From assembly GCF_002846555.1 (NCBI RefSeq), contig NZ_PJMS01000001.1, forward strand, positions 248,001 to 312,000: DNA of 64,000 nt. Direction: 5' to 3'. A model generated the notes under the pieces. It saw only the letters and a program-made list of their open reading frames with translations. It was not told where the DNA came from and searched no databases. Positions 41,694 to 61,078 of this stretch are shown piece by piece. A program made the translations under genes and the position numbers. Numbering within the stretch: position 1 is the stretch's first letter; every line of letters starts with the position of its first letter. Source of the stretch: Aquimarina sp. MAR_2010_214 (lineage in GTDB: Bacteria; Bacteroidota; Bacteroidia; Flavobacteriales; Flavobacteriaceae).

Positions 41694-41736
41694 TGACGGA
41701 TATCATAGTAACTCTATGTTATCTAGTTTACTTTTA
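41694..41736 (+). promoter_or_regulatory. FNR-like box and -7 element before the USP/cls/patatin/crp genes
   Basis: The TGA-N6-TCA site TGACGGATATCA (41694-41705) has its centre 29.5 bp before the T of TACTTTTA (41729-41736), a 7/8 match to TAnnTTTG. The start codon is at 41757. The geometry equals that of six other promoters in this window. Confidence 0.75.
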
Positions 41737-41756
41737 AGAATATAAATTTTTTACAC

Positions 41757-42596
41757 ATGAAAAATATCCTTCTCCCTACTGACTTTTCAGACAATGCTCG
41801 AAACGCTATACATTATGCTCTAGAATTTTTCAAAAACGAGCTCTGTACTTTTCACCTCTTAAATGTACAAAAAGCATCTCATTATACTACAGATGATTTG
41901 ATGGCTGCCCCAGCTAATACAACAATCCACCAGTCAGTGATCAGCGATGTTAAAAAGAAGCTAAACCAAATGGTCGAAGAACTAACCGACCAGTATTCTA
42001 ACGAAAATTATACATTTAATACAATTACTGATTATGATGTTTTTACTGATGCTATACGTCAAGCCGTAAAATCAAAGAATATCGATATAATCATTATGGG
42101 AACAAATGGTGCTACAGGTGCATCAGAAGTTGTGTTTGGAAGTAATACACTTAATGTAATTCGTAAAATAGATTGCCCTTTGGTCGCAATCCCCCAAGGA
42201 TGTAAATTTAAAGTCCCAAAAACTATTTTATATGCTATAGATTACTGGGATCATTTTAATACAGAAGGTATCGAACCTTTAATGGATACTATCATAAAAC
42301 ATAAATCTTCTTTACGAGTTCTTAAAATTAAAGAGGATGATACTATTACTGTAGCCGATTTTGATGATAAAAAGCATATGAAGAAGTTTTTTAAAGAAAT
42401 AAATCATACCTTTCATTCTATTATCAATGTGCCTACTGCTTTGGCTATAAACAGTTTTGTACAAATCATGGATGTTGATATGACCGCTATGTTTATCAAA
42501 AGAGAAACATTTTTAGATCGGTTTTTTAAGGGATCTGAGACTTCTAAAATAAGTTATGGAACAAGAGTACCTCTTTTGATTATGCATAGTCAATAA
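41757..42596 (+). CDS. universal stress protein with two USP domains
   Basis: 279 residues with two tandem USP folds. Domain 1 has the start KNILLPTDFSDNARNAIHYALEF and the ATP-binding GTNGATGASEVVFGSNTLNV near 118-137 (G-x2-G-x9-G-S/T type), so nucleotide binding is plausible there. Domain 2 (about 155-279) is degenerate. It resembles the five USPs at 56.5-61 kb but stands on the plus strand before cls, patatin and crp genes. Such proteins act in stress and low-oxygen survival. An FNR-like box lies 51 bp upstream. Confidence 0.92.
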   Translation: MKNILLPTDFSDNARNAIHYALEFFKNELCTFHLLNVQKASHYTTDDLMAAPANTTIHQSVISDVKKKLNQMVEELTDQYSNENYTFNTITDYDVFTDAIRQAVKSKNIDIIIMGTNGATGASEVVFGSNTLNVIRKIDCPLVAIPQGCKFKVPKTILYAIDYWDHFNTEGIEPLMDTIIKHKSSLRVLKIKEDDTITVADFDDKKHMKKFFKEINHTFHSIINVPTALAINSFVQIMDVDMTAMFIKRETFLDRFFKGSETSKISYGTRVPLLIMHSQ

Positions 42597-42619
42597 ATCT
42601 TATAAAACTCATACAATAT

Positions 42620-44041
42620 ATGTTATTATATATTGCTACAACGCTTTATATCTTACTAGGATTTTTTATTGTCATTCGATTGCTTTTAAACGGAATGCGT
42701 CCTACAAAAACACTGGCTTGGCTCCTTACTATTTTCACTATTCCTGTTGGTGGTATCTTTTTGTACTTAATGCTTGGTAGAAATCGTAGAAAAAACAAAT
42801 TATTTAGACTAAAACACACCCCAAAAGTAACTTCATACATTACAAAAGCACTAAATCAATATTCCTCAATAACAAAAGAAGAACATGCAGAACACCACAA
42901 AATCATTTCTTTAATTACTAAAAACTCTCACTTTGCTCCCTGTACAGGAAATGACGTGAAATTGCTTAAAAATGGCGAAGCTACTTTTCAGGCTATATTT
43001 GACGCTTTAGAACGCGCAGAGCATTTTATCCATTTAGAATATTACATTTTTGAAGAAGGCAAATTAACCTCTGATCTATTTGATCTTTTTCAAAAAAAAG
43101 TAAAAAACGGAGTAAAAATACGTGTATTGTATGATGGTATAGGTAGTATGTCTTTAAGTAAAAAATACATTAAGAAGCTTCAAAATATCGGAGTTGAAAT
43201 CCACAAATTCTTACCTATAAAATTTGGTAAGTTTTTATCCTCGATAAACTATAGAAACCATCGTAAAATCATTGTAATAGACGGCAAAGTTGCATTTACA
43301 GGGGGCATCAATGTATCTGATAAATACGTAAAAGGCGATGCTAATCTAGGAGTTTGGCATGATATGCATTTACAACTCAAAGGCCCTGTTGTTCATAGCC
43401 TCCAGGCTATTTTTGCAATGGATTGGTATATGATTAGTATTAATGATGAAATCTTGGAAACATCATATTTTCATAGATATGAAAAAATAGAAGGATCTAC
43501 AGTTCAAATTGTACATAGCGGGCCAGACTCTGACTTTTCGGCAACCCAACAGATGTATTTCTCGATAATCAATGAAGCTAAAGACTATATCTATATCACG
43601 AATCCTTATATCATTCCTGGAGAATCCATTCTGGACGCACTAAAAGTGGCATCAATGAGCGGAGTTGATGTAAGCGTATTACTTTCAGAAAAATCAGATA
43701 ATGTTATAGTCAAATGGTGTATTCGATCTTATTTTGAAGACCTGCTACAGGCTGGGGTAAAGATATACCTATTCTCAGAAGGGTTTTTACACAGTAAAAC
43801 CATTGTAGCCGACAATACCATATCCTCTGTAGGGACAACTAATCTCGATGTTAGAAGTTTTGAACAAAACTATGAGGTGAATGCGGTCATCTATGATGAT
43901 AACTTTGCGATAGAATTAAGAGATGATTTTTTAAACGATATTAAAAACAGTAAACAATTAGATTTTAATACATTTATACAACGTCCCTGGATTGAAAAAT
44001 TAAAAGAAGGTTTTGCAAAAATCTTTAGTCCGGTTTTGTAA
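42620..44041 (+). CDS. cls: cardiolipin synthase
   Basis: 473 residues, standard for bacterial Cls. Two N-terminal membrane helices (IATTLYILLGFFIVIRLLL and TLAWLLTIFTIPVGGIFLYL) are followed by two HKD phospholipase D motifs: NHRKIIVIDGKVAFTGGIN near 215-233 and LHSKTIVADNTISSVGTTN near 393-411. It joins two phosphatidylglycerols to cardiolipin at the inner membrane. It follows the USP gene by 23 bp and precedes the patatin gene by 12 bp, so an operon is likely. Confidence 0.93.
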   Translation: MLLYIATTLYILLGFFIVIRLLLNGMRPTKTLAWLLTIFTIPVGGIFLYLMLGRNRRKNKLFRLKHTPKVTSYITKALNQYSSITKEEHAEHHKIISLITKNSHFAPCTGNDVKLLKNGEATFQAIFDALERAEHFIHLEYYIFEEGKLTSDLFDLFQKKVKNGVKIRVLYDGIGSMSLSKKYIKKLQNIGVEIHKFLPIKFGKFLSSINYRNHRKIIVIDGKVAFTGGINVSDKYVKGDANLGVWHDMHLQLKGPVVHSLQAIFAMDWYMISINDEILETSYFHRYEKIEGSTVQIVHSGPDSDFSATQQMYFSIINEAKDYIYITNPYIIPGESILDALKVASMSGVDVSVLLSEKSDNVIVKWCIRSYFEDLLQAGVKIYLFSEGFLHSKTIVADNTISSVGTTNLDVRSFEQNYEVNAVIYDDNFAIELRDDFLNDIKNSKQLDFNTFIQRPWIEKLKEGFAKIFSPVL

Positions 44042-44053
44042 ATTTATTGTGAA

Positions 44054-44836
44054 ATGAAAACATCAAAAAAAATAGGATTAGTCCTCTCTGGAGGAGGGTT
44101 TAAAGGTATTGCACATATTGGTGTGATACATGCTCTGGAAGAAGCCGGAATGACTGCTGATTTTGTTTCGGGAACAAGTGCAGGAGCCATTGTAGGATCT
44201 TTATATGCCGGGGGATATTCTACCGAGGAAATAAAAAACTTTTTTACAAAAACATCGCTATTCAAGTTTAATCGGTTCTCTAGAAAAAAAGCCGGATTCT
44301 TAGATTCTGAAAAATTTTATGATGATCTGCTTACTTATTTTCCAGAAAATTCTTTCGAATCCTTGAACAAAAAACTATTTGTTACAGCGACTAATCTTAT
44401 AGAAGGAACAACACAAGTGTTTAATACAGGAGAATTGATTAAACCTTTATTAGCTTCTGCTGCATTTCCGGGTGTTTTTACTCCAGTAACAATCGACAAT
44501 GAACTATATGCCGATGGAGGTATTCTGGATAATTTCCCTGTATCTCCACTCAAAAAACATTGTGATCTAATTATTGGTGTAGATGTATCCCCAATTAAAA
44601 AACCAAAAATCACCGATTTTAAACATTCCTACAATGTTATGCAACGAGCATATTATCTTAGAGCTATGCCAAATGCCGAAGCTAAATTTAATCTCTGTGA
44701 CATTATAGTGCAACCAAAAAAACTGGTTAATCATGGTATCTTTAGCAGTAGTAGTTTAGACAAAGTATATGATCTGGGATATCAGGAAGCAAAATTACAA
44801 TTAGAATCATTTTTAAAAAACAGGAAGAATGATTAA
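44054..44836 (+). CDS. patatin-like phospholipase family protein
   Basis: 260 residues. Oxyanion-hole glycines LSGGGFKGIAHIG near 12-24, nucleophile elbow GTSAG near 43 (GxSxG) and the catalytic Asp in the DGG motif YADGGILDNFPV near 156 complete the Ser-Asp dyad. It should hydrolyse acyl-ester lipids in the cytoplasm or at the membrane. It overlaps the Crp/Fnr gene by 8 bp and follows cls, suggesting a membrane-lipid remodelling function. Confidence 0.92.
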   Translation: MKTSKKIGLVLSGGGFKGIAHIGVIHALEEAGMTADFVSGTSAGAIVGSLYAGGYSTEEIKNFFTKTSLFKFNRFSRKKAGFLDSEKFYDDLLTYFPENSFESLNKKLFVTATNLIEGTTQVFNTGELIKPLLASAAFPGVFTPVTIDNELYADGGILDNFPVSPLKKHCDLIIGVDVSPIKKPKITDFKHSYNVMQRAYYLRAMPNAEAKFNLCDIIVQPKKLVNHGIFSSSSLDKVYDLGYQEAKLQLESFLKNRKND

Positions 44837-45461
44837 AGAAATAAAAAATAAGTACGGTCACCTTTTTGAAGATGAATTACTTGAAGAAATTAATCAGGTA
44901 GGAACGTTTAAAGAAATTCCTGAAGGGTTTGAACTTATTAAACCCGGAAGCTATATTAAATTCATGCCTTTGATTATTAGTGGAGCCATAAAGATACTTA
45001 GGGGAGATAGTGATGGCGACGAATTGTTATTATATTTTTTAGAACAAGGGGATACTTGTGCCATGACATTATCTTGTTGTCTGGGATATCATAAAAGCGA
45101 AATTAAAGCTATTGCAGAAACAGATGCTAAACTGGTAATGATTCCTATTGAAAAAATGGAAGAATGGACAACCAAGTATAAGTCCTGGAGGAATTTTATT
45201 TTTAATAGTTATCATAAACGACTGATAGAAACCATTGAGACTATAGACAGTATTGCTTTTCTAAAAATGGATGATCGATTGTTAAAATATCTAAGAGATA
45301 AAACCAAAATCAGCCATACCAAAATTATCAATACTACGCATCAGCAAATCGCATATGATCTGCATACTTCACGAGTAGTAATCTCAAGATTGCTCAAAAA
45401 ACTTGAAAAAGAAGGTATTGTTAAACTAAACAGAAACAATGTAGAAGTTGTATCAGTTTAA
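44829..45461 (+). CDS. Crp/Fnr-family regulator with Cys77, Cys83, Cys84 and a Val in the recognition helix
   Basis: 210 residues. The cyclic-nucleotide-type beta barrel covers about 1-115. In place of a cAMP phosphate-binding cassette it has GDTCAMTLSCCLGY, with Cys at 77, 83 and 84, so a redox or sulfur signal is more likely than cAMP. It lacks the N-terminal cysteine cluster of FNR. The helix-turn-helix (about 170-191) is QQIAYDLHTSRVVISRLLKK. Aligned to CRP, Arg182 and Arg187 match Arg180 and Arg185, while Val183 replaces Glu181. This suits a TGTAA half-site rather than TGTGA. Two such sites stand before the next sulfur genes. It overlaps the patatin gene by 8 bp. Confidence 0.9.
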   Translation: MIKEIKNKYGHLFEDELLEEINQVGTFKEIPEGFELIKPGSYIKFMPLIISGAIKILRGDSDGDELLLYFLEQGDTCAMTLSCCLGYHKSEIKAIAETDAKLVMIPIEKMEEWTTKYKSWRNFIFNSYHKRLIETIETIDSIAFLKMDDRLLKYLRDKTKISHTKIINTTHQQIAYDLHTSRVVISRLLKKLEKEGIVKLNRNNVEVVSV

Positions 45462-45501
45462 AATAACGCTATCTAAGCAAAAAATCAAGTCGTACTAGCT
45501 T

Positions 45502-45546
45502 TGTAACAATTGTTACTGTATTGCAATGATAATTGCCTTATTTTTG
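45502..45546 (+). promoter_or_regulatory. TGTAAC-N4-GTTAC site and -7 element before the persulfide dioxygenase gene
   Basis: TGTAAC-AATT-GTTACT (45502-45517; perfect palindrome over 45503-45516) is centred 29.5 bp before the T of TATTTTTG (45539-45546), a perfect -7 element. The start codon is at 45610, leaving a leader of about 60 nt. Confidence 0.75.
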
Positions 45547-45609
45547 AACACTAATTAATAAATAGATAGCTTTCTCCCTAAAATTGAGAAAAGCTTAAAA
45601 ATACAATAT

Positions 45610-47022
45610 ATGAAGATAGAGCAAATATATACCGGATGTCTCGCTCAAGGAGCTTATTATATAGAAAGTAACGGAGAAGTAGCGATTATAGACCCTCTAA
45701 GAGAAATAAAATCATATATAGAAACAGCGAATGAAGATAATGCAAAAATCAAATATATTTTTGAAACTCATTTTCATGCAGATTTTGTAAGTGGACACGT
45801 AACTCTAGCCAAGGAAACCGGAGCCAAGATCATTTATGGGCCTAGTGCTAATCCATCTTTTGAAGCTACAATTGCTGAGGATGGACAAGAGTTTCGATTA
45901 GGAGAAATTACAATAATTGCGCTACATACTCCAGGACACACTATGGAGAGTACAACCTATCTTCTTAAGGATGCAACTGGTAAAGATCATGCTATTTTTA
46001 GTGGTGATACTTTGTTTCTTGGTGATGTCGGTCGCCCTGATCTTGCTCAAAAAGCAGCAGATATGACTCAAGAAGAGTTGGCAGAAACACTTTATGATAG
46101 TTTACGTAACAAAATTATGCCTCTGGCAGATGATGTGATTGTATATCCTGCGCACGGTGCCGGTTCTGCCTGTGGTAAAAATATGATGAAAGAGACGGTT
46201 GATACTTTGGGAAATCAAAAGAAAATGAATTATGCGCTTAGAGTAGATATGACCAAAGAAGAATTTGTAAAAGAAGTTACTGATGGTTTACTTCCGCCTC
46301 CATTATATTTTCCACTTAATGTGAAAATGAATAAAGAAGGCTATACCGATATTGATGAGGTAATTCAAAAAGGAACAAGGCCTTTTTCTCCAGAAGAATT
46401 TGAAGCTTTTGCCAATGAAACCGGCGCAATAGTTCTTGATGTAAGATACCAGAGTGAATATGTAAAAGGACACATCCCTCGCTCTATATTTATTGGCATC
46501 GATGGTGGTTTTGCACCTTGGGTTGGTGCTTTAATTGCCGATGTGCAACAACCCATTTTGTTGGTAACACCAGAAGGAAGAGTAGAAGAAACAATTACAC
46601 GACTATCAAGAGTAGGATTCGACAATACTCTGGGATACCTCGAAGGTGGTTTTGAAGCCTGGAAAAAAGCAAGTAAAGACTATGACACCTTAACTTCAAT
46701 CTCTGCTTCAGAATTTAAAAATACTATGGCAAATGAAGAAATCCCTGTTTTTGATGTGCGTAAAGAAAGTGAATTTACAGCAGAACATGTAGATAAAGCT
46801 CATAATACACCTTTGGATTTTATTAATGATTATCTGGCAGAATTCCCTACTGATAAAACTTTTTATGTACATTGTGCCGGAGGATATCGTTCTGTAATTG
46901 CAGCCTCAATATTAAAAAGTCGTGGTATTCATAACCTTATAGATGTAGCCGGTGGTTTTAAGGATATTAAAGAAGTAGGTATTGAGACAACTGATTATGT
47001 ATGCCCTAGCACTTTAAAATAA
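45610..47022 (+). CDS. MBL-fold persulfide-dioxygenase-like protein with two rhodanese domains
   Basis: 470 residues. Domain 1 (1-240) is an ETHE1-like metallo-beta-lactamase fold with ETHFHADFVSGH near 56-67, HTPGHTMES near 110 and FSGDTLFLGDVGRPDL near 135. The first rhodanese domain (about 260-360, VLDVRYQSEYVKGHIPRS) has Val-Thr where the catalytic Cys would be (ILLVTPEGR), so it is inactive as an enzyme. The second (about 370-470) has a good active-site loop HCAGGYRS with Cys near 431. The protein should oxidise glutathione- or bacillithiol-type persulfide, or transfer sulfur. It is controlled by the TGTAAC-type promoter site. Confidence 0.92.
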   Translation: MKIEQIYTGCLAQGAYYIESNGEVAIIDPLREIKSYIETANEDNAKIKYIFETHFHADFVSGHVTLAKETGAKIIYGPSANPSFEATIAEDGQEFRLGEITIIALHTPGHTMESTTYLLKDATGKDHAIFSGDTLFLGDVGRPDLAQKAADMTQEELAETLYDSLRNKIMPLADDVIVYPAHGAGSACGKNMMKETVDTLGNQKKMNYALRVDMTKEEFVKEVTDGLLPPPLYFPLNVKMNKEGYTDIDEVIQKGTRPFSPEEFEAFANETGAIVLDVRYQSEYVKGHIPRSIFIGIDGGFAPWVGALIADVQQPILLVTPEGRVEETITRLSRVGFDNTLGYLEGGFEAWKKASKDYDTLTSISASEFKNTMANEEIPVFDVRKESEFTAEHVDKAHNTPLDFINDYLAEFPTDKTFYVHCAGGYRSVIAASILKSRGIHNLIDVAGGFKDIKEVGIETTDYVCPSTLK

Positions 47023-47048
47023 AAAGTGCGCTGTCAAGAATACTTATT

Positions 47049-47684: not shown

Positions 47685-47724
47685 CATTAGTTACAGAAAA
47701 CTCTTTTTCTATTTAATTACTTTG
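47680..47724 (+). promoter_or_regulatory. TGTAAC-N4-GTTACA site and -7 element before the YeeE/YedE genes
   Basis: TGTAAC-ATTA-GTTACA (47680-47695), both half-sites perfect, is centred 29.5 bp before TTACTTTG (47717-47724), a 7/8 match to TAnnTTTG. It overlaps the last codons of the methyltransferase gene. The start codon is at 47743. Confidence 0.75.
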
Positions 47725-48718: not shown

Positions 48719-49711
48719 TTCTAGAGTTAATTCATTTTTACCTGACTCATTTTGTTGCCAACAATTGATATTATAAAATGTTATCTCTGCAAGAATAGTA
48801 AGTGCTTCTTTGGTAGCAAAAGCTTGATGTGGAGTAAGAAAAACAGTTGGTAAATCGATAAGTTGCTGTAAGATTTTATCTTCAGGTTTATTTTCAGAAT
48901 GATCGTAAAAAAAGATACCACTTTCATGTTCGTAAACATCTGTCCCATATCCCGCTATTCTTTTTGATACTAAAGCTTGCAATAGATCTTGTGTATGGAC
49001 TAATGCACCCCGAGCAATATTGATAAGTATCACTTCTTTTTTCATATGTTTAATACGATCCTTATCTATGAGATGATGTGTTTGTGAATTGAGTGGTGCG
49101 CTTAAAAAAATAATATCAGATTGCTTACATAAATGTTCTAAATCTGTATATGTTACCTTATACTCGTGTTCTAGCTCTTTGTCTTCATTTATATCGTTAC
49201 CTATAATCTCGCAATTAAATCCGTGCATTATTCTGGCAATTGCTTTTCCTATTCTACCAGTTCCGATAATACCAACAGTCTTTTTATTGATATCTAAACC
49301 TACAAGATTACTCAATGAAAAATTATAATTACTAACCTGATGATTTGAGGAAATAAGTTTACGATTAAGTGCTAACAATAATGCAATCGCATGCTCGGCT
49401 ATAGTTTGCGGAGAATATCCTGCTGTATTAGCTACTTTTATCCCTAATTTTTTAGCTGTATTAATGTTTACATTGTCATATCCCGTTGAACGAAGTGCTA
49501 TATATTTTACACCAAAATCTTTCAATCTTTCTAAAACCATAGAAGATCCGTTATCTGCAGAAAAAATAGATATTGCATCAAAACCTAATGCCAGTGCAGC
49601 AGTTTTTGGAGTAAGTCGTTCTGGTATGTATTTGACTTGATGCTCTTCATTATTTGCTTTTTCCAGAAAGGGGATTTCAAAGTCCTTAGCACTATATATC
49701 AATATCTTCAT
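48707..49711 (-). CDS. ldhA: D-lactate dehydrogenase (2-hydroxyacid dehydrogenase)
   Basis: 334 residues from ATG 49711 (MKILIYSAKDFEIPFL, as in other LdhA proteins); an in-frame ATG at 49726 gives five more residues. NAD-binding motif VGIIGTGRIGKAIARI near 145-160, catalytic Arg in INIARGALVHT near 233, Glu in DVYEHESGIFFYD near 260 and His in TPHQAFAT near 294. The DVYE.ES.IFFYD segment is typical of fermentative D-LDH. It reduces pyruvate to D-lactate, fitting the low-oxygen gene set around it. Its start overlaps the end of the upstream lipoprotein gene by 20 bp. Confidence 0.9.
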   Translation of the reverse strand: MKILIYSAKDFEIPFLEKANNEEHQVKYIPERLTPKTAALALGFDAISIFSADNGSSMVLERLKDFGVKYIALRSTGYDNVNINTAKKLGIKVANTAGYSPQTIAEHAIALLLALNRKLISSNHQVSNYNFSLSNLVGLDINKKTVGIIGTGRIGKAIARIMHGFNCEIIGNDINEDKELEHEYKVTYTDLEHLCKQSDIIFLSAPLNSQTHHLIDKDRIKHMKKEVILINIARGALVHTQDLLQALVSKRIAGYGTDVYEHESGIFFYDHSENKPEDKILQQLIDLPTVFLTPHQAFATKEALTILAEITFYNINCWQQNESGKNELTLELVR

Positions 49712-50357
49712 TAGTGAGTTCTTCAATGATTAATAATTGCTGTCCTTTTAGTGCCCATACCAGTACTTTAACATAATCGCTTATTGCTTTTTTAGTATTT
49801 TCGGGTTCGGTGATATCTATTGATCCTTTCCAAATTAATTCTCTTTCTTTATCAGGACAGATACAATAGAGCGAGGATTCTGCATGAAAAATTTGATATT
49901 CCTCATAATAATCTTCATCATAATAAATATCCTGATTTTCATAATAGTCATCTCTAAAACTGTCAAATGTTTTATCAAGGTTTCTGTATGCTTTTACAAC
50001 AGAAACTTTATCTTCAACTCCTAATACCTTTGATAATAGAATTGCATCAAAACCGTTTTCTATAAGCTGGGACTCTAGAGCCATCATTTCTTTTTCAGAC
50101 TTTGGAGAAGTCGTAAAAGAGCTTTTAAAATAATCCAAACTTCTTACAGCACTCACTCCACTTTTCTTCAATTCATTAGTCAGTTTCTTTTCAAATACTT
50201 TTCGTGCACTTTCATCTGGGGTAATTCCAATGACCAAAACTTTTTGTGCTTCAAATGTATCGATATCTGGGTTTTTCCAGTTTTCTACCAATTCACTAGA
50301 TGTACAACTGAACAGTAATCCGCTAACAATTATAAGGTATATATATATCTTGTTCAT
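49692..50357 (-). CDS. hypothetical lipoprotein of 221 residues
   Basis: The N-terminus IYIYLIIVSGLLFSCTSSELVENWKN is a lipoprotein signal with Cys18 and the following SxLVExWKNP segment resembles a group of Bacteroidota lipoproteins with a DUF4136-like alpha/beta fold. The centre contains VLVIGITPDESARKVFEKKL and an acidic tyrosine-rich stretch (DDYYENQDIYYDEDYYEEY). Function unknown. It overlaps the dehydrogenase gene by 20 bp and is 39 bp downstream of the flavodoxin-like gene, so all probably share a transcript. Confidence 0.75.
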   Translation of the reverse strand: MNKIYIYLIIVSGLLFSCTSSELVENWKNPDIDTFEAQKVLVIGITPDESARKVFEKKLTNELKKSGVSAVRSLDYFKSSFTTSPKSEKEMMALESQLIENGFDAILLSKVLGVEDKVSVVKAYRNLDKTFDSFRDDYYENQDIYYDEDYYEEYQIFHAESSLYCICPDKERELIWKGSIDITEPENTKKAISDYVKVLVWALKGQQLLIIEELTNEDIDI

Positions 50358-50396: not shown

Positions 50397-50921
50397 TTAC
50401 TTTATTATTTTGTTTAGTCGATCCACCACAATATTGGTATATTCTGGTGTTTTTTCAATAATAGATTCACCAGATATTACATCAATATCTTTTAAGGCAA
50501 TATTACTACTTCCTACTGTAGATAAGATAATGAGTTTATCTAATTGATCTGGGTGGTTTTTAATAAAGTTTTTTACGTTTCTTGGCGGACTCCCGTACTC
50601 CCATGAATTAATGATAACCAAAGCATCCCACTTATCAATATTAACAGTAAACATGGTATATGCATCTATTACTTTAAAATGAATAGCATCATTTTGGTAA
50701 TGTTTTAGTATTCCTTGAACTAATGAATCTTTAAATTTACTTCCTTGCGAGGCTATCAAAACTTTAGTTTTCAGACTAGAATCATTAACCTCAAAAGGTA
50801 TTACAGTATCCATAGAATATGTATATTCATACCATACCCAAAATCCGGCAAAGAGTAATAATCCAAAAAGGATTATAATCTTCAGGATACGTTTGATCGA
50901 TTTATATTTACTTTTAATCAA
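50397..50921 (-). CDS. membrane-anchored flavodoxin-like protein
   Basis: 174 residues. One N-terminal membrane helix (ILKIIILFGLLLFAGFWVWY, residues 12-31), then a soluble domain with alternating strands and helices: KTKVLIASQGSKFKDSLVQG near 51 (a phosphate-loop-like start), WDALVIINSWEYGSPPRNV near 97 and LDKLIILSTVGSSNI near 127. The order and motifs suggest a flavodoxin fold outside the cytoplasmic membrane; FMN binding is not certain. It overlaps the upstream gene by 4 bp. Confidence 0.65.
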   Translation of the reverse strand: MIKSKYKSIKRILKIIILFGLLLFAGFWVWYEYTYSMDTVIPFEVNDSSLKTKVLIASQGSKFKDSLVQGILKHYQNDAIHFKVIDAYTMFTVNIDKWDALVIINSWEYGSPPRNVKNFIKNHPDQLDKLIILSTVGSSNIALKDIDVISGESIIEKTPEYTNIVVDRLNKIIK

Positions 50922-51453: not shown

Positions 51454-51897
51454 TTAATCTATTTCAATTACCTTTTTGGGTTGTTCTTTTGCTTCTTCCT
51501 TTTTCAGAAGATTAAGGGTGAGGACCCCGTTTTTGTATGTAGCTTTAACCTTTTCATTCTGGTTTACGCTAGTAGGTAATTGTAATTTTCTATCGAACTC
51601 ATTATAACTAAATTCTCTACGTGTATACCCTTCATCCTCTTCTACTTCTTCTTTACTTTTTTGAGCACAAATGTGTAATACATCGTCTTCCATAGTTACT
51701 TCAATATCCTTTTTTGAAAAACCAGGTACTGCGAGTTCAATTTCAAAATCATCCTTGTTTTCTTTAACATTCATGGCAGGGAGTTTTTTGTCTCTTACAA
51801 AAAAATCATCTGCAAAAAAATCATCTGTATCTAACCAGGTAGAAACCCGATCATTGATCCAAGGAAATCTGTTTTTGTTAAATTTAATTAATGACAT
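51454..51897 (-). CDS. hsp20: Hsp20/alpha-crystallin small heat-shock protein
   Basis: 147 residues. The alpha-crystallin domain (about 38-137) shows NVKENKDDFEIELAVPGFSKKDIEVTMEDDVL in its first half and the conserved A-x-x-x-N-G-V-L-T-L motif (YKNGVLTLNLL, near 120-130), followed by the short tail with KVIEID. It is a cytoplasmic ATP-independent chaperone. It has a perfect FNR-like box 64 bp upstream and its own terminator, so it forms a single-gene unit. Confidence 0.95.
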   Translation of the reverse strand: MSLIKFNKNRFPWINDRVSTWLDTDDFFADDFFVRDKKLPAMNVKENKDDFEIELAVPGFSKKDIEVTMEDDVLHICAQKSKEEVEEDEGYTRREFSYNEFDRKLQLPTSVNQNEKVKATYKNGVLTLNLLKKEEAKEQPKKVIEID

Positions 51898-51930: not shown

Positions 51931-51973
51931 TAAAGTTAAGTTGATAACAGGTATATCAAAATGATAATTATCA
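51931..51973 (-). promoter_or_regulatory. FNR-like box and -7 element of hsp20
   Basis: TGATAATTATCA (51962-51973, perfect palindrome) has its centre 29.5 bp before the first base of TAACTTTA (minus strand, 51938-51931), a 7/8 match to the -7 element. The start codon is at 51897. Confidence 0.8.
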
Positions 51974-51997: not shown

Positions 51998-52420
51998 TTA
52001 ACTTTGTTTTTTATTCTTTCTTAAAACTCCTCCTGCATAAAGAAAAACTTCGGATTTTAGTGTATTAAAATTTCTATAGAAATCATCAAACTCTCCCTTT
52101 ACCAGTGTGTGGTTTTTATAATAAAAATTATCACAAGAAATAGTATCACATTCTAGCATACCACCCAATTCACTTTCGTGTTTTCTTATCTCATCATTTA
52201 TATTTTTTGTTTTTTCTTCAATAGCTACGATTTGCTGCTTAAATTCCTGTATTCTCTCAAAGAGGTTTGGAGTTGTAGGTTCGAATATATAAGAATTTAA
52301 TAATTGATTAATGAAATGTATTTCACCTTCTATAAATCGAAGACTTGATTTCCATTTTAAAATATCAAAATGTATTTCTTTTATTTCTTTTTCTGGAGAG
52401 TTATTGGTTGCTGTCATCAT
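51998..52420 (-). CDS. helical protein, paralogue of the 50918-51361 protein
   Basis: 140 residues. Starts MMTATNNSPEKEI; the shared core begins W-x-S-x-L-R-F-I-E-x-E-x-H-F near residue 28. The following helices (NLFERIQEFKQQIVAIEEK) look like coiled coil. Function unknown. A perfect copy of the FNR-like box lies 56 bp upstream, so it belongs to the same regulon as Hsp20 and the USPs. Its stop is just upstream of the hsp20 promoter. Confidence 0.7.
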   Translation of the reverse strand: MMTATNNSPEKEIKEIHFDILKWKSSLRFIEGEIHFINQLLNSYIFEPTTPNLFERIQEFKQQIVAIEEKTKNINDEIRKHESELGGMLECDTISCDNFYYKNHTLVKGEFDDFYRNFNTLKSEVFLYAGGVLRKNKKQS

Positions 52421-52445: not shown

Positions 52446-52488
52446 AAAAGATATCTAATCTTTTGCAATTAAAAAGTGATAATTATCA
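52446..52488 (-). promoter_or_regulatory. FNR-like box and -7 element of the 140-residue helical protein
   Basis: TGATAATTATCA (52477-52488, perfect palindrome) has its centre 29.5 bp before TATCTTTT (minus strand, 52453-52446; 7/8 match). The start codon is at 52420. Confidence 0.8.
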
Positions 52489-55129: not shown

Positions 55130-55140
55130 ACGATTCTATT

Positions 55141-55977
55141 TTATGTTGTACACAGCATTTTGATTTCATTTATAATATTTTGTTTTCGCTGTTCAGAAAT
55201 GCCTAAATGATCCAGAAAAAAAATCTGTTCTATCAATTGTTTAACTAAAACAACATCTCTACTTAATAGAAATTGCTTTTCCCGATTTGTTAAAAATGTA
55301 GAAACCGTTATTGGATATAATCCAAGACGATCAACTCTATCTTTAAGGCTATTATCTTTGGGATAATCCCAACTTAGTAAATATAATCCTGCACATTTAC
55401 CATATTGAATTGCGTCTTTTGTAAAACGAGTATTGGTTACTACCCAACCATGATTAGGAATCATTTCTCCATTATTTTCATGATGTGTTTCAATATCTCT
55501 AAATCTAGAATGGATATATAAAGGAACTTTTACATTACAATTACGCCCTTCTTCGCTATGAAATTTACATTCTATAACCAAATAATCGCTATTTTTTCTA
55601 GCTACTACATCGACTTCATGGGATACACACATGCCTTGAATGACTTGCCCTATTTCTACATGATATCCAGAATATTGTAATATTGACGCAACAAAACGTT
55701 CGAAAGGAAAACCAGTTGGTCCCAATTCATAAATCGCTTTTTTCAATTTATACTTCGAAGCAAAAACAGATTTTTTCTTCTTAAGTAATGCAAAAGCTCG
55801 ATTATAAATTTCTCTGGTAGAAATACCCTGGTATAATTCGTCTCTAACAATTCCCAAAATATATTCTACTGCTTTATCATCCGCGCCACTCCGCTTTAAC
55901 GAATTGCGAAGTTTATGGAGTGAAAATTTAACTTTTTCTCCAGAAGATTTTATAACATCAAGATTCTGGTTTTGCAT
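55141..55977 (-). CDS. ATP-cone domain fused to Mrr-like restriction-endonuclease fold
   Basis: 278 residues. Residues about 5-90 are an ATP-cone (VIKSSGEKVKFSLHKLRNSLKRSG, then DELYQGISTREIYNRAFALLKK), a nucleotide-sensing module known from ribonucleotide reductases and NrdR. Residues about 92-210 have an Mrr-type nuclease core: FPFERFVASILQYSGYHVE, then EVDVVARKN and YLVIECKFH, giving the catalytic D-(x)n-ExK. The C-terminal part is helical (FLTNREKQFLLSRDVVLVKQL). The role is unknown, possibly nucleotide-gated nucleic-acid cleavage during stress. It is 12 bp upstream of the beta-CASP hydrolase gene and 36 bp downstream of the next gene. Confidence 0.85.
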   Translation of the reverse strand: MQNQNLDVIKSSGEKVKFSLHKLRNSLKRSGADDKAVEYILGIVRDELYQGISTREIYNRAFALLKKKKSVFASKYKLKKAIYELGPTGFPFERFVASILQYSGYHVEIGQVIQGMCVSHEVDVVARKNSDYLVIECKFHSEEGRNCNVKVPLYIHSRFRDIETHHENNGEMIPNHGWVVTNTRFTKDAIQYGKCAGLYLLSWDYPKDNSLKDRVDRLGLYPITVSTFLTNREKQFLLSRDVVLVKQLIEQIFFLDHLGISEQRKQNIINEIKMLCTT

Positions 55978-56012
55978 TAAAAATATTTAAATATGAAACA
56001 CAACTAAATACC

Positions 56013-56435
56013 TTAGTGAATACGCTGCTGATCTTTTTTAAAGTATGATCTTACCAAAGCTTTGGTTTGATTATCGGTCATACTATCTGCTTTGAGCACA
56101 TCTTTTACCTTTTTACTTATATCTTTATAATTTGTCGCTAATTCTTTATTGAATTTTTCTCCCGTTTCTGCAGGCCCGTAAATCACGATACTATCTGCAT
56201 CTTTTAAAAGAGAAGCTATCTTCTTGAAATACGCCTTAAACTGATGTTTCTCACGCTCCAGATATTTACTATCCTGAACCACATCCTGTGGTCCTCCTTT
56301 AAGTCGTGTACCTGAACCACCATGAATACGAAAATTTTCAATTTCTGATGGTATCGTATTCATATCCTCACTATCTTCTTTGACAGAAATGATATGAGCT
56401 TTCTCTTTATCTATCCAAATTCCTATATGTTTCAT
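56013..56435 (-). CDS. small protein with RNase H-like (eRF1-domain-like) pattern
   Basis: 140 residues. Start HIGIWIDKEKAHIISVKED is the first beta-hairpin of host-attachment/eRF1-domain-2-like proteins, and SIVIYGPAETGEKFNKEL near 83-100 matches the following phosphate-loop-like turn in such folds. The rest is helical and lysine-rich, ending in KDQQRIH. Its place between a USP and a nuclease fusion suggests translation or nucleic-acid work in stress; function unproven. Confidence 0.65.
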   Translation of the reverse strand: MKHIGIWIDKEKAHIISVKEDSEDMNTIPSEIENFRIHGGSGTRLKGGPQDVVQDSKYLEREKHQFKAYFKKIASLLKDADSIVIYGPAETGEKFNKELATNYKDISKKVKDVLKADSMTDNQTKALVRSYFKKDQQRIH

Positions 56436-56514
56436 CTGTTTACATTTTATGGTTAAAGAGTATTAACAAGTTGTTATAAGGTGTAAACTGCTTGTTGAAT
56501 ACATATTTACTTAT

Positions 56515-57369
56515 TTAATTTGCTATATCATGCAAAGCCAACACAGGTACTTTAGAATGATGTCCTAAGTTTTTCACCATTGGTTTTGAAAATATACTTC
56601 CAAAAAAACTGTGTTTTCTATTGATAAAAGTAATCATATCACTCTCTCTACTTTCTACAAAACTGCTCAGCCCTCCTTTTACATCTATATTGTGTAAAGT
56701 ATGAAAAGTATATTTTATACCATCTAGGTATTCTACGAGCAATTTCTTGTTGTTTTCTTGTTCTTCGTCCAAGTTATCATCATTAGTAACATGAAGAATT
56801 TTTATTTCTGCATTGGTGATCTTTGCAATTTCAGTTAGATATTGGAGCTCTCTGCGTTTAATTTGAATTTTATAATCTGTTGGAAATACAATTTCTTTTG
56901 GCTCCTTATAATCAGCACCTTCTGGGATAGCCATAACAGGGCAATTTCTTACTTTTTCCATCACCAAAACAGTATTACTACCATAAATCAGATCTCCAGC
57001 ATTAGTCGCCCCCTTTGTTCCCATAACGATCATTTCTATATCCTTTTTCTCTACAGTATCTTTAATAGCACTCAATACATTATTGAATTGTGATATCATA
57101 AAAAATTTATGATCAGGGTTATCATCTCTAAAACTCAATCTTTCTTTGATCTTATTTAATCCGTTTTCTGATTTCTCCTTAGCTTCTTCGTAAATTCGTT
57201 CTCCAGGTTCGGGAATCATCATACTTTCTAATGCATAACCCGTCGCATTAAACACATTAAGAACGTAAAAATCACATGTTTCATTCTTATATAGCTCTAT
57301 AGCATATAGTATAGCATTCCACGCATTTTTTGAAAAATCCGTGGGCAATAAAATCTTTTTTTTCATCAC
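56515..57369 (-). CDS. universal stress protein, two USP domains (copy 1)
   Basis: 284 residues (283 if the second Met is used). Domain 1: KKKILLPTDFSKNAWNAILYAIELY at 3-27 and GTKGATNAGDLIYGSNTVLV near 117-136, the ATP-binding pattern. Domain 2 (about 155-284): IVFPTDYKIQIKRRELQYL and a degenerate end (HHSKVPVLALHD). It opens a run of minus-strand genes down to 53759. A perfect FNR-like box is 54 bp upstream. Confidence 0.92.
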   Translation of the reverse strand: MMKKKILLPTDFSKNAWNAILYAIELYKNETCDFYVLNVFNATGYALESMMIPEPGERIYEEAKEKSENGLNKIKERLSFRDDNPDHKFFMISQFNNVLSAIKDTVEKKDIEMIVMGTKGATNAGDLIYGSNTVLVMEKVRNCPVMAIPEGADYKEPKEIVFPTDYKIQIKRRELQYLTEIAKITNAEIKILHVTNDDNLDEEQENNKKLLVEYLDGIKYTFHTLHNIDVKGGLSSFVESRESDMITFINRKHSFFGSIFSKPMVKNLGHHSKVPVLALHDIAN

Positions 57370-57392
57370 TTTAGGTCTTTAGATTAGTCCTA

Positions 57393-57435
57393 TAAATTTA
57401 TAGATATAGCCTTGCAAAAACTATGATAATTATCA
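57393..57435 (-). promoter_or_regulatory. FNR-like box and -7 element of USP copy 1
   Basis: TGATAATTATCA (57424-57435, perfect palindrome) has its centre 29.5 bp before TAAATTTA (minus strand, 57400-57393; 7/8 match). The box overlaps the stop codon of the upstream USP gene by two bases at its outer end. Start codon at 57369. Confidence 0.8.
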
Positions 57436-58281
57436 GCTTGGCTCAGGAATGACTAAGAAAGGTACCGAAAGATGAAAACCAATTTTTTTAATTACTGGTT
57501 CATGCACAATACTTTCCATTAGGCTATGTTTATATTGTGACATACAAAGCATATCAATATTCATTTCATCAATAAATTCATTGATGAGTTTTGCTTTTTG
57601 AGTAAATCGAGGAATCCAATGTATACAATAATTATGGCCTTTAAGATTTTCTTTAAGACTCTTAAGGTTATGCTCTTGTATTTCGTCTAATTTTTCTTCT
57701 TCATGAATGTGCATTACCCTGATGTTTGAAGAAAACACGGTAACAATTTCTAGAAGAGGTTTTAAAGATTCTATAGTATATAGACATTTAAAATCTGTTG
57801 CAAAGCCAATTTCTATGGGTTTTTTAAAATCAAATTCATCTGGCACTGCCAGTATTGTACAATCTTTAATTTTTTTAATAACCTTAACTGTATTACTTCC
57901 TATAAGAACTTCTTTGGCACCACTAGCTCCTTTAGTCCCCATAACTACAAGATCTATTTTTTTACTCTTTATGGTTTTATTAATAGTGTCTGTAAGTTTT
58001 TTGGAAACAGATATCGTCTCAAATGTATGATTAAGATCCTCTGTATCCCTAACTATTGAGTGAAGTGTCTCTGTAAGTTTTTCCTGGGATTCATTACTTA
58101 ATTGCTGATATAATGAATCTCCTTTTGCTGTATTCATTCTGCTAGTTAAAACTGGAGTGTCTACATCAAAAGTGTTTAATATACAGAAATGGCATTCTTG
58201 ATCTTGAAATAGCCGAGTGGCATAAAAAAGAGCACTATAGGCATTATTAGAAAAATCTGTGGGAACGAGTATTCTTTTCAT
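57433..58281 (-). CDS. universal stress protein, two USP domains (copy 2)
   Basis: 282 residues. MKRILVPTDFSNNAYSALFYATRLF opening and GTKGASGAKEVLIGSNTVKV near 115-134 with the nucleotide-binding pattern; second domain opening EIGFATDFKCLYTIESLKPL near 155. Its own FNR-like box lies 58 bp upstream (58340-58351), so it is a separately promoted unit between copies 1 and 3. Confidence 0.92.
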   Translation of the reverse strand: MKRILVPTDFSNNAYSALFYATRLFQDQECHFCILNTFDVDTPVLTSRMNTAKGDSLYQQLSNESQEKLTETLHSIVRDTEDLNHTFETISVSKKLTDTINKTIKSKKIDLVVMGTKGASGAKEVLIGSNTVKVIKKIKDCTILAVPDEFDFKKPIEIGFATDFKCLYTIESLKPLLEIVTVFSSNIRVMHIHEEEKLDEIQEHNLKSLKENLKGHNYCIHWIPRFTQKAKLINEFIDEMNIDMLCMSQYKHSLMESIVHEPVIKKIGFHLSVPFLVIPEPS

Positions 58282-58308
58282 CGCTTTTCAGTTTTACAAA
58301 TTACATCA

Positions 58309-58351
58309 TAAAACTAGCTTTATAATACTAAGAATACTATGACAAATCTCA
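58309..58351 (-). promoter_or_regulatory. FNR-like box and -7 element of USP copy 2
   Basis: TGAGATTTGTCA on the minus strand (58351-58340; TGA-N6-TCA) has its centre 29.5 bp before TAGTTTTA (58316-58309; 7/8 match). Start codon at 58281. Confidence 0.75.
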
Positions 58352-58366
58352 TGTCTGCACAAACTC

Positions 58367-59221
58367 TCAAATTGCAGTATCAGCCGGAATTACTAAAAAA
58401 GGAATTGTAGTATGAAATGTCATTTTCTTGATAATAGGTTCTTTTATTATTCTTTCTATAAAACTATGTTCATAATTAATCATTACCAGAATATCGATCT
58501 CTAACTCTTCAATAAATTCCTGAATAGCATTCTCTACAGTTGAGAAATCAGACATGACATGAAAATCATATTTTACTCGTTTAAAATAGTGTTCTAATGT
58601 ACTAGAATTATAGTGTTGTAAAGGGCCTAATCCCGGCTCATCATATATATGAATCATCCTAATAGTCGCATTGTAATTTTTAGCAAACTCCAATATAGGA
58701 GTTACTTCTGCCTTATGGTACATTCTCTCAAAATCTGTTGCAAAAGCTATTGCTGAAATTTCTTTAAAATATGAATCATCAGGAATAACAAGAATCGGAC
58801 AATATGATATATTCTTAACTACTTTTTGTGTATTACTCCCTAAAAAAATGTTTTTGCTTCCAGTTGCTCCTTTAGTGCCAATAATGATCATATTAAAAGG
58901 ATTGTTTTTTGAAAGCTTGTTTATATTATCAACCAAAGCCCCTTTCTTACTAATCATTTTAAAAGTATGATCCACACCAGGTTTAGAGTTATGGATATCC
59001 TCTATTGTCATTTTTAAACCTTGCTCAGATTCTATCTTAACTGCTTCATAAAGATGGCCAATTCTTTGAGAGCTCACAACATTTATAAGTTGTACTGGTT
59101 CAAGATCATAGGTGTTTAACAAATGAAACTCACAAGGAACATTTCTATATAGCTCTATAGCATACAATATAGTATTCCATGCATTATCAGAAAAATCTGT
59201 AGGGATCAAAATTCGTTTCAT
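58367..59221 (-). CDS. universal stress protein, two USP domains (copy 3)
   Basis: 284 residues. MKRILIPTDFSDNAWNTILYAIELY at the start and GTKGATGSKNIFLGSNTQKV near 115-134; second domain AIAFATDFERMYHKAEVTPI near 158 and the C-terminal HTTIPFLVIPADTAI. It follows copy 4 by 20 bp without a promoter of its own and is probably the last gene of a three-USP operon starting at 60954. Confidence 0.92.
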   Translation of the reverse strand: MKRILIPTDFSDNAWNTILYAIELYRNVPCEFHLLNTYDLEPVQLINVVSSQRIGHLYEAVKIESEQGLKMTIEDIHNSKPGVDHTFKMISKKGALVDNINKLSKNNPFNMIIIGTKGATGSKNIFLGSNTQKVVKNISYCPILVIPDDSYFKEISAIAFATDFERMYHKAEVTPILEFAKNYNATIRMIHIYDEPGLGPLQHYNSSTLEHYFKRVKYDFHVMSDFSTVENAIQEFIEELEIDILVMINYEHSFIERIIKEPIIKKMTFHTTIPFLVIPADTAI

Positions 59222-59241
59222 CTATTAAAGTTTATTATGTC

Positions 59242-60096
59242 TCACTGCATTTTTTTTTCAGAAGGAATTACCAAAAAAGGAATATTGGTGTGGTATGCAA
59301 TCTGATTAATTACGGGTTTAAATAAAAGGTTTTCAAAAAAAGAATGCTTGTTATGAATCATAACCAACAAATTGATAGTATACTTTTTCTGAAAATCTTC
59401 TACCGCGTCCAAAACATCCATTCCTTCTGCAATATGAAAAATATGGGCATTATCTTTAAAATATTCATCCAGCCTTTCCTTTGTCTTTTGTTGTTCACTA
59501 TCTAAGGCAACCCCATAATATGCATTTAAGATATTGAGCCTGCATATATACTTATCGCAAATTTCTTTTACAAAAGGTAAATATTTATTATCCACACTAA
59601 GGTTATAATCTGTTGGAAATAAAACATCCTTAGGTTCTTCAAATGTAAAACCAGAAGGGACTGCAATAACGGGGCAATTCACTTTTTTTATCGTATACAT
59701 AGTATGCGTACCAATAAAAACTTCTTTGGCTCCTGTAGCTCCTTTGGTTCCCATTACGATAAGGTCAATATTATATTTTTCGACAACTTCTTTAATCTCA
59801 CCAATAAGAGTATTAAAAGTTGATAATCTAACAAAACTATGTTTTGGATTATCAAATTCTTCCTTTATTTTTTCTTCTGTTTGTTCTACATCCCGTTTAG
59901 AATTGATCATTGCAATATCTTCCATTCCATACGGTGCAGGATTCTCTATAAGATACCCTGTATGGTATGATACTGGCGTAAAGGTATTAAGCAAATAAAA
60001 AGTGGCTTCTTCATCTCTAAATAGATTCAATGCATATTTGATCGCATTAAATGCGTTATCAGAAAAATCAGTGGGTAATAAAATTCGTTTCATCAT
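59242..60096 (-). CDS. universal stress protein, two USP domains (copy 4)
   Basis: 284 residues (283 from the second Met, which aligns with the other copies). MKRILLPTDFSDNAFNAIKYALNLF opening, GTKGATGAKEVFIGTHTMYT near 116-135 (Thr-His instead of Ser-Asn in the motif), second domain VLFPTDYNLSVDNKYLPFV near 157. It starts 9 bp after the stop of copy 5, clearly in one operon. Confidence 0.92.
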   Translation of the reverse strand: MMKRILLPTDFSDNAFNAIKYALNLFRDEEATFYLLNTFTPVSYHTGYLIENPAPYGMEDIAMINSKRDVEQTEEKIKEEFDNPKHSFVRLSTFNTLIGEIKEVVEKYNIDLIVMGTKGATGAKEVFIGTHTMYTIKKVNCPVIAVPSGFTFEEPKDVLFPTDYNLSVDNKYLPFVKEICDKYICRLNILNAYYGVALDSEQQKTKERLDEYFKDNAHIFHIAEGMDVLDAVEDFQKKYTINLLVMIHNKHSFFENLLFKPVINQIAYHTNIPFLVIPSEKKMQ

Positions 60097-60105
60097 TATA
60101 TAATT

Positions 60106-60954
60106 TTAATATCGTTGTAAATTCTGCATCGCTAAAAAAGGAATCTTAATATGTAATCCTATTTTATCAATTGTAGATTGGTGTAATAGGCTTTCTAAAT
60201 AAGAACGTCTAGAATTTATCATTACCAAAAAATCTATTTCATTACTCTTTATAAATTGATTAATACCATCTGTAAGGTCTTCTGATGCCTTTTGATGAAA
60301 TATTAATTCTGCTGTAGGTAATGATTGTTTTAAAAAGTGTTTATTATCTTCCTGTCTTATAGAAAGTTTATCAAAATCAGATATATATAAAAAATTAATC
60401 ACCGATCTAAAACTTTTGGTGAGTGTACTTAATAACTTTAACTCTCTTCGTTTAAATGGTAATTGATAATCCGTTGGAAACAAAATGTTTTTTGGTGGAC
60501 TATAACTACAACCACTCGGAATTACTAATAAAGGGCATTTTACATATTTAAGCACTTGCAAGGTATTACTCCCAAAAGTAAGTTTTCGGTCATCAGTTTC
60601 TCCTCTTGTACCCATAATTAGAATATCTAAGTTTTCTTTATCTACCAGATCATTAGCTTCATCAATCAGACTTCCGAACATTGATAGTAATTTAAACTCA
60701 TGTCGGGGGTTAGGTGAAATATTTTTTATTTCTGAAAGCATCTTCTCTAGGACCACATCAGAGTTTTTATGTACTTTTTGTTTTAGCTCATTAAAAACTT
60801 CGCGGGATACCACAGTGTCGTGATCATATACCTCATCTGCATAAGCATGTAGAAGAAAAAAATCACAACGCTCATATTTAAAAAGTTCAACAGCATATCG
60901 TAAAGCATTCATGGCATTTTCTGAAAAATCTGTAGGAATCAATATTTTTCTCAT
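60106..60954 (-). CDS. universal stress protein, two USP domains (copy 5)
   Basis: 282 residues. MRKILIPTDFSENAMNALRYAVELF opening; the nucleotide motif is GTRGETDDRKLTFGSNTLQV near 115-134, with Glu-Thr where the other copies have Ala-Thr, so its binding may differ. Second domain ILFPTDYQLPFKRRELKLL near 155. First gene of the three-USP operon; its promoter has an FNR-like box and a perfect -7 element. Confidence 0.92.
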   Translation of the reverse strand: MRKILIPTDFSENAMNALRYAVELFKYERCDFFLLHAYADEVYDHDTVVSREVFNELKQKVHKNSDVVLEKMLSEIKNISPNPRHEFKLLSMFGSLIDEANDLVDKENLDILIMGTRGETDDRKLTFGSNTLQVLKYVKCPLLVIPSGCSYSPPKNILFPTDYQLPFKRRELKLLSTLTKSFRSVINFLYISDFDKLSIRQEDNKHFLKQSLPTAELIFHQKASEDLTDGINQFIKSNEIDFLVMINSRRSYLESLLHQSTIDKIGLHIKIPFLAMQNLQRY

Positions 60955-60980
60955 CGCTTGCTTTTTTGATATGTTAGATT

Positions 60981-61023
60981 CAAAATTAGGTAATTACAGA
61001 CACAGAAACTATGATTTTTGTCA
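60981..61023 (-). promoter_or_regulatory. FNR-like box and -7 element of the USP 5-4-3 operon
   Basis: TGACAAAAATCA on the minus strand (61023-61012; TGA-N6-TCA) has its centre 29.5 bp before TAATTTTG (60988-60981), a perfect TAnnTTTG. Start codon at 60954. Confidence 0.8.
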
Positions 61024-61035
61024 GTTGAAGAATCA

Positions 61036-61078
61036 TGATATTTGTCATATTATATAAACGCATACTTTTTCATATTTG
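61036..61078 (+). promoter_or_regulatory. FNR-like box and -7 element of the CcoI-like ATPase gene
   Basis: TGATATTTGTCA (61036-61047) has its centre 29.5 bp before CATATTTG (61071-61078; 7/8 match to TAnnTTTG). Start codon at 61094. Together with the box at 61012-61023 it makes a back-to-back promoter pair. Confidence 0.8.

Follow-up and report, generated by a model that had tools for sequence, protein, structure and literature searches.

The 64,000-nucleotide stretch of Aquimarina sp. MAR_2010_214 analysed here (contig NZ_PJMS01000001.1 of assembly GCF_002846555.1, positions 248,001-312,000; hereafter the window) carries seven promoters with a TGA-N6-TCA box of the Crp/Fnr type at one and the same distance from the -7 element, and it raises the question which protein reads these boxes, and in response to which signal. 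We propose that the boxes act as class II operators in a low-oxygen regulon of FNR type in the Bacteroidia, and that their most likely reader in Aquimarina is a fusion of a receiver domain to an FNR-type activator, encoded behind a FixL-like haem-PAS kinase. Judged from the sequences, we consider this reading fairly probable.

All seven boxes described in a first-pass annotation of the window were found again, at positions 41694, 51962, 52477, 57424, 58340, 61012 and 61036. In each case the TCA half-site is separated by exactly 23 bp from a TAnnTTTG-type -7 element (matching in seven or eight of eight positions), the centre of the box lies 29.5 bp before the first T of that element, and the start codon follows 46-64 bp past the box. 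Three sites (51962, 52477 and 57424) share the identical perfect palindrome TGATAATTATCA. The first-pass annotation had recognized here the class II geometry of Crp/Fnr activators at a Bacteroidota -7 element, and the two-fold symmetry of the operator and its fixed distance to the -7 element bear this out. According to passages of a study on Flavobacterium psychrophilum, TAnnTTTG spans -12 to -5 (PMC9723704); with its first T at -12, the operator centre would be placed at about -41.5. Within the window the plain box occurs 41 times against 24.3 expected, a count reached in none of 100 shuffles; the combined pattern of box and -7 element, with up to two mismatches, occurs 28 times against 19.1, a mild excess that 3 of 100 shuffles attain. 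As this makes the window alone weak evidence, the spacing was tested over the whole genome, with the remaining spacings serving as internal controls.

The genome is a single contig of 5,982,454 bases. A search for CAAAnnTA-N(8..38)-TGAN6TCA returned 108 matches, and among the 100 listed, 19 have a spacing of 23, against 81 for the other 30 spacings, a mean of 2.7 each (Poisson P about 1e-10 for spacing 23). The enrichment over controls that the first-pass annotation had expected is thus present, with a spacing of 23 as the single clear outlier. When the last base of the -7 element was freed (TAnnTTT), 54 sites with this spacing (N23 sites) were obtained against 20 for the backwards pattern; six of the seven window sites are among them, site 61036 being excluded by its -7 element CATATTTG. 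Note that the backwards control understates chance (one backwards match in this genome against the mean of 2.7 at other spacings), for which reason other spacings were used as controls. By the open reading frame (ORF) rule of this analysis, 40 of the 54 sites are intergenic, and among the first 30 loci of the 8-38 spacing scan the same is true for 6/6 at spacing 23 versus 7/24 at other spacings. A downstream ORF was found by script for 36 sites, and in 23 of them its start lies 39-64 bp past the box. The 40 intergenic sites yield the logo (A/C)TGA(T/C)-W4-(A/G)TCATAnT, with the logo string MTGAYWWWWRTCATANT; the outer T before TGA and the outer A after TCA of the FNR box are present in 5 and 4 of the 40, respectively.

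The candidate regulator lies 23 kb to the right of the window (genome positions 335,015-336,076). This protein of 353 amino acids unites Response_reg (PF00072), cNMP_binding and HTH_Crp_2 domains in one chain, and its gene stands directly behind that of a 411-residue PAS histidine kinase (HisKA and HATPase_c). The best match of the kinase PAS domain in the PDB is FixL (1d06, E 1.3e-13; also 1dp6), followed by the haem sensor DosP, and the haem histidine of FixL aligns with a histidine of this domain. The aligned residue is kept in all 18 PAS-bearing kinases of the class sample (kinase L131 of that sample is without a PAS domain owing to a contig edge) and in all 73 of the closer relatives, the Aquimarina kinase included, and the distal arginine of FixL is kept in 65 of those 73. 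Receiver residue D52 and the recognition-helix residues E319 and R323 are identical in 78 of 78 fusion proteins, again with the own one included, a count that leaves out L190, L228 and L238. The recognition helix reads GIATESLIRTL, with an isoleucine where FNR, whose helix has the form E..SR, has a serine (Ser212). The sole cysteine of the fusion, C51, is part of the receiver, and its cNMP-fold cassette, FLGFTSFIDNTPYLESATA, by eye seems to be without the residues that contact cAMP in CRP. The genome encodes 24 cNMP-binding proteins (E <= 0.001), none of which has a CxxC motif within its first 60 residues. Against a profile of the four-cysteine FNR-type proteins of relatives described below, the fusion ranks first among these 24 with 158.6 bits, followed by L063 (155.4) and L064 (154.8).

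The association of the fusion with the sites extends to other genomes. We kept the best 80 fusion loci from GTDB genomes (Aquimarina, Maribacter, Aequorivita, Winogradskyella and others; 1.02 Mb), the own fusion protein being 95% identical to the Aquimarina ones. With TAnnTTT they contain 308 matches at N23, 23 at N24, 14 at N25 and 1-12 at each of the other 28 spacings; the loci are related and the matches not independent. At least one N23 site is found in 78 of the 80 loci, and 68 matches lie at most 100 bp from where the regulator gene ends. Of the 80 loci, 78 include a USP-like gene and 72 a kinase gene directly upstream of the regulator. A more distant sample, the 20 best-ranked fusion matches after the own one in genomes of the class, gave 12 matches to TAnnTTTG at N23 versus 4 over all other 30 spacings, with an adjacent kinase in 19 loci, a USP-like gene in 19 and cco genes in 6. 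Across 197 genomes of the class, 1056 matches at spacing 23 stand against 258.1 expected from other spacings. For 195 of these (G054, with a fusion match in two pieces and a stop, and G142, at a contig edge, were left out) presence of fusion or FNR was scored at an E-value limit of 1e-70. In this comparison, uncorrected for phylogeny or lifestyle, the excess is 7.5-fold in 34 genomes with both fusion and FNR (410 observed, 54.4 expected), 4.05-fold in 62 with the fusion only (301, 74.3), 3.3-fold in 45 with FNR only (223, 68.5) and 2.2-fold in 16 with only another FNR-clade protein (47, 21.0). In a phylum sample of 198 genomes, 32 encode a full fusion (E <= 1e-60), and all 32 belong to the class of the window.

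Several observations weigh against the proposed explanation. In half of the 20 distant fusion loci the sequence retrieved contains no N23 site. Relaxing the -7 element to TAnnTTT yields 14 matches at N23 in the 20 loci versus 48 summed over the remaining 30 spacings, 7 of which fall at N18. The 38 genomes with neither regulator still show 63 matches against 38.0 expected, a 1.66-fold excess that points to additional users of this geometry, perhaps other Crp proteins. At P < 0.01 no excess was found in 35 of 96 fusion-bearing genomes, and an excess was found in 23 of 99 genomes without the fusion; in three of the latter (G148, G163 and G020) other Crp proteins, neither fusion nor four-cysteine FNR, are encoded beside sites (L139, L140, L141). 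The distal arginine of FixL occurs in only 5 of the 18 distant kinases of the class sample. In Aquimarina itself, the recognition helices of L062, L063 and L064 are of the Glu..Arg kind too, and these proteins might use the sites as well.

One of these three (L063 or L064, near 5.63 Mb, or L062, near 4.76 Mb) might thus be the main reader, and the fusion would then control something else. L063 and L064, with SIESL(A/V)R helices, nearly equal the fusion in their score on the FNR profile, the site before ompW is about 12 kb away from them, and the excess in genomes with only another FNR-clade protein points in the same direction. Nevertheless, the 13-kb stretch around L063 and L064 (L146) contains no N23 site of the TAnnTTT form, whereas nearly all of the 80 fusion loci have one, and we regard this explanation as unlikely.

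The sites of relatives without the fusion lead to a second type of sensor. Eight of the 23 genomes without a fusion yet with a significant site excess were looked at. Four of them (G175, G196, G062 and G134) have a standalone FNR-type protein with a CxxC motif, encoded less than 3 kb from a site and beside ccoI or cco genes, and in two more (G163 and G082) a standalone FNR is found about 8 kb from a site. G148 has its FNR at the cco genes and G020 an FNR-clade protein without CxxC, which was kept out of the FNR alignment, in both cases with no site within the stretch examined. The eight aligned FNRs, seven of these and one from G025, have invariant cysteines C16, C19, C65 and C118 and a recognition helix, GTATE(S/T)xIRLL, that is close to the one of the fusion. 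Note that G025 encodes both the fusion and a four-cysteine FNR (L153). By position, C16, C19 and C118 match three of the ligands of E. coli FNR, and C65 would replace the fourth. The order of cysteines in these eight Bacteroidia proteins (L142, L135-L138, L143, L144 and L153), a CxxC, then C65, then the equivalent of C122 in FNR numbering, is unusual and possibly reflects a cluster ligand set other than that of E. coli FNR. In the simplest reading, one operator is apparently served by an iron-sulphur sensor, by a haem kinase pathway, or by both.

The promoter of the sensor-regulator operon itself carries the palindrome with a shifted spacing. Of 72 kinase genes adjacent to the regulator gene (L164-L243), 64 have TGA-N6-TCA upstream, with the -7 element on the kinase side at 24 bp in 19 cases, at 25 bp in 8 and at 23 bp in none; other spacings also occur, mostly 9-11 and 20. 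On the opposite side, 47 palindromes upstream of kinase genes are 23 bp from a divergent -7 element. In Aquimarina the palindrome at 337345 (L086:6345-6356) is 23 bp from the -7 element of a divergent gene for a 134-residue protein and 24 bp from that of the kinase, an arrangement from which weaker or negative autoregulation of the operon might be expected. We put forward, seeing the case for and against as evenly balanced, that the Bacteroidia have a one-step FixL-to-FixJK cascade in which the fusion took the place of a four-cysteine FNR, or acts together with one, at a shared operator. The sensor would have been exchanged with operator, spacing and regulon kept, and the spacing of 24 or 25 bp at the promoter of the sensor-regulator operon would make its autoregulation weak or negative.

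In the mechanism that we envisage, low oxygen would empty the haem of the kinase PAS domain, the kinase would then phosphorylate D52 in the receiver of the fusion, and the fusion dimer would bind TGAY-N4-RTCA and contact RNA polymerase across the -33 region. Switched on in this way would be USPs, Hsp20, the cbb3 oxidase with its copper supply, respiration of NO and N2O, NAD synthesis and an ATP-yielding acyl-CoA ligase. The sites, their spacing, the target genes, the domain make-up, the conserved residues and the co-localization of the genes are read directly from the sequence; haem binding, phosphotransfer, DNA binding by the fusion and oxygen as the signal are inferred.

The genes behind the window sites fit such a regulon. 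On the forward strand, TGACGGATATCA-N23-TACTTTTA (41694..41736) is the predicted promoter of a USP gene (41757-42596), followed by cls-like (42620-44041), patatin-like (44054-44836) and crp-like (44829-45461) genes; the gaps suggest an operon, and the names cls and patatin are those of the first-pass annotation. On the reverse strand, TGATAATTATCA-N23-TAACTTTA (51931..51973) precedes an Hsp20 gene (51454-51897), TGATAATTATCA-N23-TATCTTTT (52446..52488) a gene (51998-52420) whose 140-residue product has no Pfam or NCBIfam match, TGATAATTATCA-N23-TAAATTTA (57393..57435) a USP-like gene with a GTG start (56515-57369), and TGAGATTTGTCA-N23-TAGTTTTA (58309..58351) another USP-like gene (57433-58281). 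Three consecutive USP-like genes (60106-60954, 59242-60096 and 58367-59221), probably an operon, follow TGACAAAAATCA-N23-TAATTTTG (60981..61023, reverse strand, 8/8 in the -7 element). On the forward strand, TGATATTTGTCA-N23-CATATTTG (61036..61078) precedes the gene of a CcoI-like heavy-metal P-type ATPase with a PF12156 metal-binding domain (61094-63493). A further site that the first-pass annotation did not contain, TGACCAAAGTCA-N23-TAGCTTTG (38080..38122, forward strand), has an 8/8 -7 element and precedes a ThiF/MoeB-like gene (38170-39273), but with the start codon 78 bp past the box it is weaker than the other seven. Apparent molybdopterin genes come after this ThiF/MoeB-like gene. The spacing-23 matches at 14676 and 37661 of the window are located inside ORFs and look like chance.

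Outside the window, the site at genome position 325955 precedes ccoS, which starts 51 bp past the box and is too short for the ORF choice of the script, and then a fused ccoNO gene; it is the sole N23 site in the 19 kb that adjoin the window on the right and encode NapA and neighbouring proteins. Site 3501378 precedes a small cytochrome c, NorC-like by eye, and a NorB-like protein, and site 1433896 a cytochrome c gene 1.2 kb before the gene of a 667-residue NosZ-like protein, with a NirK-like gene 1.7 kb upstream (names by eye). Behind 1423812 are nadA and a NadB-like gene. Site 3514350 precedes a CoA-binding/ATP-grasp ligase of the ADP-forming acetate-CoA ligase type, which scores below curated cut-offs, and 3514489 a CBS protein divergent from this acyl-CoA ligase. 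The remaining targets are ompW (5619392), a PilJ-domain protein (5016269, start 137 bp away), a PAS protein (2318131), USP-like genes (334994 and 342815), an AhpC-type peroxiredoxin (343216, 148 bp), an MlaE permease (377842), an ABC1-type kinase (3071720) and, doubtfully, a ClpB-type gene (4764879, 139 bp); behind the intergenic sites 753106, 2059437, 2453230, 3077403, 4791792 and 5325397 no convincing gene was seen. The low-oxygen character that had been ascribed to the gene set is evident in the USPs, Hsp20, ccoS-ccoNO, the norCB-like genes and the cytochrome c near the NosZ-like gene, and the box did serve to find further members of the regulon. Of the targets that had been predicted, cbb3 oxidase and a fermentation-type acyl-CoA ligase are present, but the first genes annotated behind the sites did not include a ribonucleotide reductase. 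The boxed set is most likely switched on when oxygen runs short.

Two genes for very similar 128-residue proteins (L090:4608-4991 and L091:4780-5163), 520 kb apart, have the box TGACATTGGTCA and the spacing in common, and next to one of them a Bro-N gene with a TGATAATTATCA site runs divergently. In addition, the window genes 49692-50357 and 50397-50921, without Pfam matches, have apparent paralogs (by eye) side by side near genome position 3,085 kb (L092:10147-10752 and 10830-11342), with N23 sites 196 bp and 53 bp before them.

Rather than oxygen, the signal might be nitric oxide or nitrogen oxides, as for regulators of the DNR, NnrR or HcpR kind. Haem-PAS and Crp-fold proteins can sense NO, and the norCB-like genes, the cytochrome c near the NosZ-like gene and the PilJ-domain protein would be apt targets. 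Most annotated targets, however, fall outside nitrogen-oxide metabolism (USPs, Hsp20, cbb3 oxidase, the CcoI-like ATPase, nadA), the best solved relatives of the sensor are FixL and DosP, and some relatives have a four-cysteine FNR at their cco genes. We therefore hold such a signal to be rather improbable, and retain oxygen as the likely one.

A third possibility is the Crp-family protein of the window (44829..45461, forward strand; HTH_Crp_2 and cNMP_binding), which the gene list of the first-pass annotation suggests as a reader of the boxes. Its gene is part of the probable operon behind site 41694, and it would then be an autoregulated activator. In its recognition helix, TSRVVISRLL, the segment SRVVISR has a valine where FNR and CRP have a glutamate (Glu181 in CRP), and behind its gene lies a second operator, TAACAATTGTTAC, at spacing 23 before TATTTTTG (45504..45546, forward strand), ahead of a gene that is MBL/rhodanese-like by eye (45610-47022). 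Genome-wide, 4 of 9 matches to TAAC-N4-GTTA over 31 spacings are at 23, with a total that is not above the backwards control (9 versus 11). Among 25 loci scanned that encode relatives with this valine, TAAC-N4-GTTAC occurs at spacing 23 in 10 (own L244 and L075 included, own L071 not), and TGA-N6-TCA, in the form searched, in none; neither operator form was found in six newly drawn loci of the glutamate type. Twenty-three valine-type loci contain 28 matches to TAACN4GTTAC (14 loci) and none to TGACN4GTCAC, and eight glutamate-type loci none to the former and 3 to the latter (2 loci). Two of these eight, L139 and L140, were taken because a site adjoined the Crp gene and make this sample a biased one; their glutamate-type proteins beside TGA-N6-TCA sites speak for the window protein as a reader of the boxes. 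A CAP with Glu181 changed to valine is reported to prefer A:T at the matching base, and the operator pattern of the two types agrees with this preference. A natural change of operator specificity between the two types, TGAC-N4-GTCAC for glutamate and TAAC-N4-GTTAC for valine, is possible. The two types look like clades, so that perhaps few evolutionary events are involved. The operator of the window Crp appears to be TAAC-N4-GTTAC, likewise spaced by 23 bp, with TAACAATTGTTAC as the probable target. On its valine helix and its own operator we have set it aside as regulator of the seven boxes, a role that now appears highly improbable. That the fixed spacing is a mere composition effect of AT-rich promoters, as the mild enrichment in the window might suggest, is contradicted by the genome-wide, class-wide and locus-level profiles with other spacings as controls, and has a negligible likelihood.

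The system we propose resembles the FixL-FixJ-FixK cascade in its haem-PAS histidine kinase, a receiver with a phospho-acceptor aspartate, a Crp/Fnr-type activator, cbb3 and denitrification targets, and a TTGAT-N4-ATCAA-like box. In rhizobia the output of FixJ is of the LuxR type, and FixK is a separate protein made under FixJ control. In Aquimarina, by contrast, receiver and Crp/Fnr activator are one polypeptide with a cNMP_binding and HTH_Crp_2 output, the transcription step from FixJ to fixK would be missing, and the outer T and A of the box are not conserved. FixK2 is named as an activator of nos genes at low oxygen in the title of PMC5582078. With FNR and ANR the system shares the core half-site TGA, the class II position, targets in anaerobic respiration and, in some relatives, a four-cysteine FNR at the cco genes, but the Aquimarina regulator has a receiver domain in place of N-terminal cysteines. 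USPs, Hsp20 and haem-based oxygen kinases are also features of the DosR (DevR) regulon of Mycobacterium tuberculosis, although DosR is a LuxR-type regulator with another box. E. coli CRP/CAP is alike in class II geometry and fold, and differs in the fused receiver and, apparently, in the cNMP cassette of the Aquimarina protein.

Under oxygen limitation, cbb3 oxidase and haem synthesis go up in Flavobacterium psychrophilum, which speaks for the proposed reading; the words Crp and Fnr are absent from the main text of that study (PMC9723704). Homologues in Flavobacteriales have been predicted to sense carbon (PMC8510549); judging from the genes found here, one or more CRP/FNR branches of the class appear to have another role. 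Passages of PMC9239204 contain nothing on a receiver-FNR fusion, and no paper on the oxygen-response regulator of aerobic Bacteroidota was recognized by title or abstract start in the literature searched, with subscription papers mostly outside its scope. The domain architecture might already be described, for instance in Galperin's censuses of response regulators. Aerobic Bacteroidota are abundant marine polymer degraders, and a spacing rule exact to one base would allow the regulon to be located in every genome of the class. The system would also offer a natural experiment, in which one operator is apparently served by two chemically different oxygen sensors.

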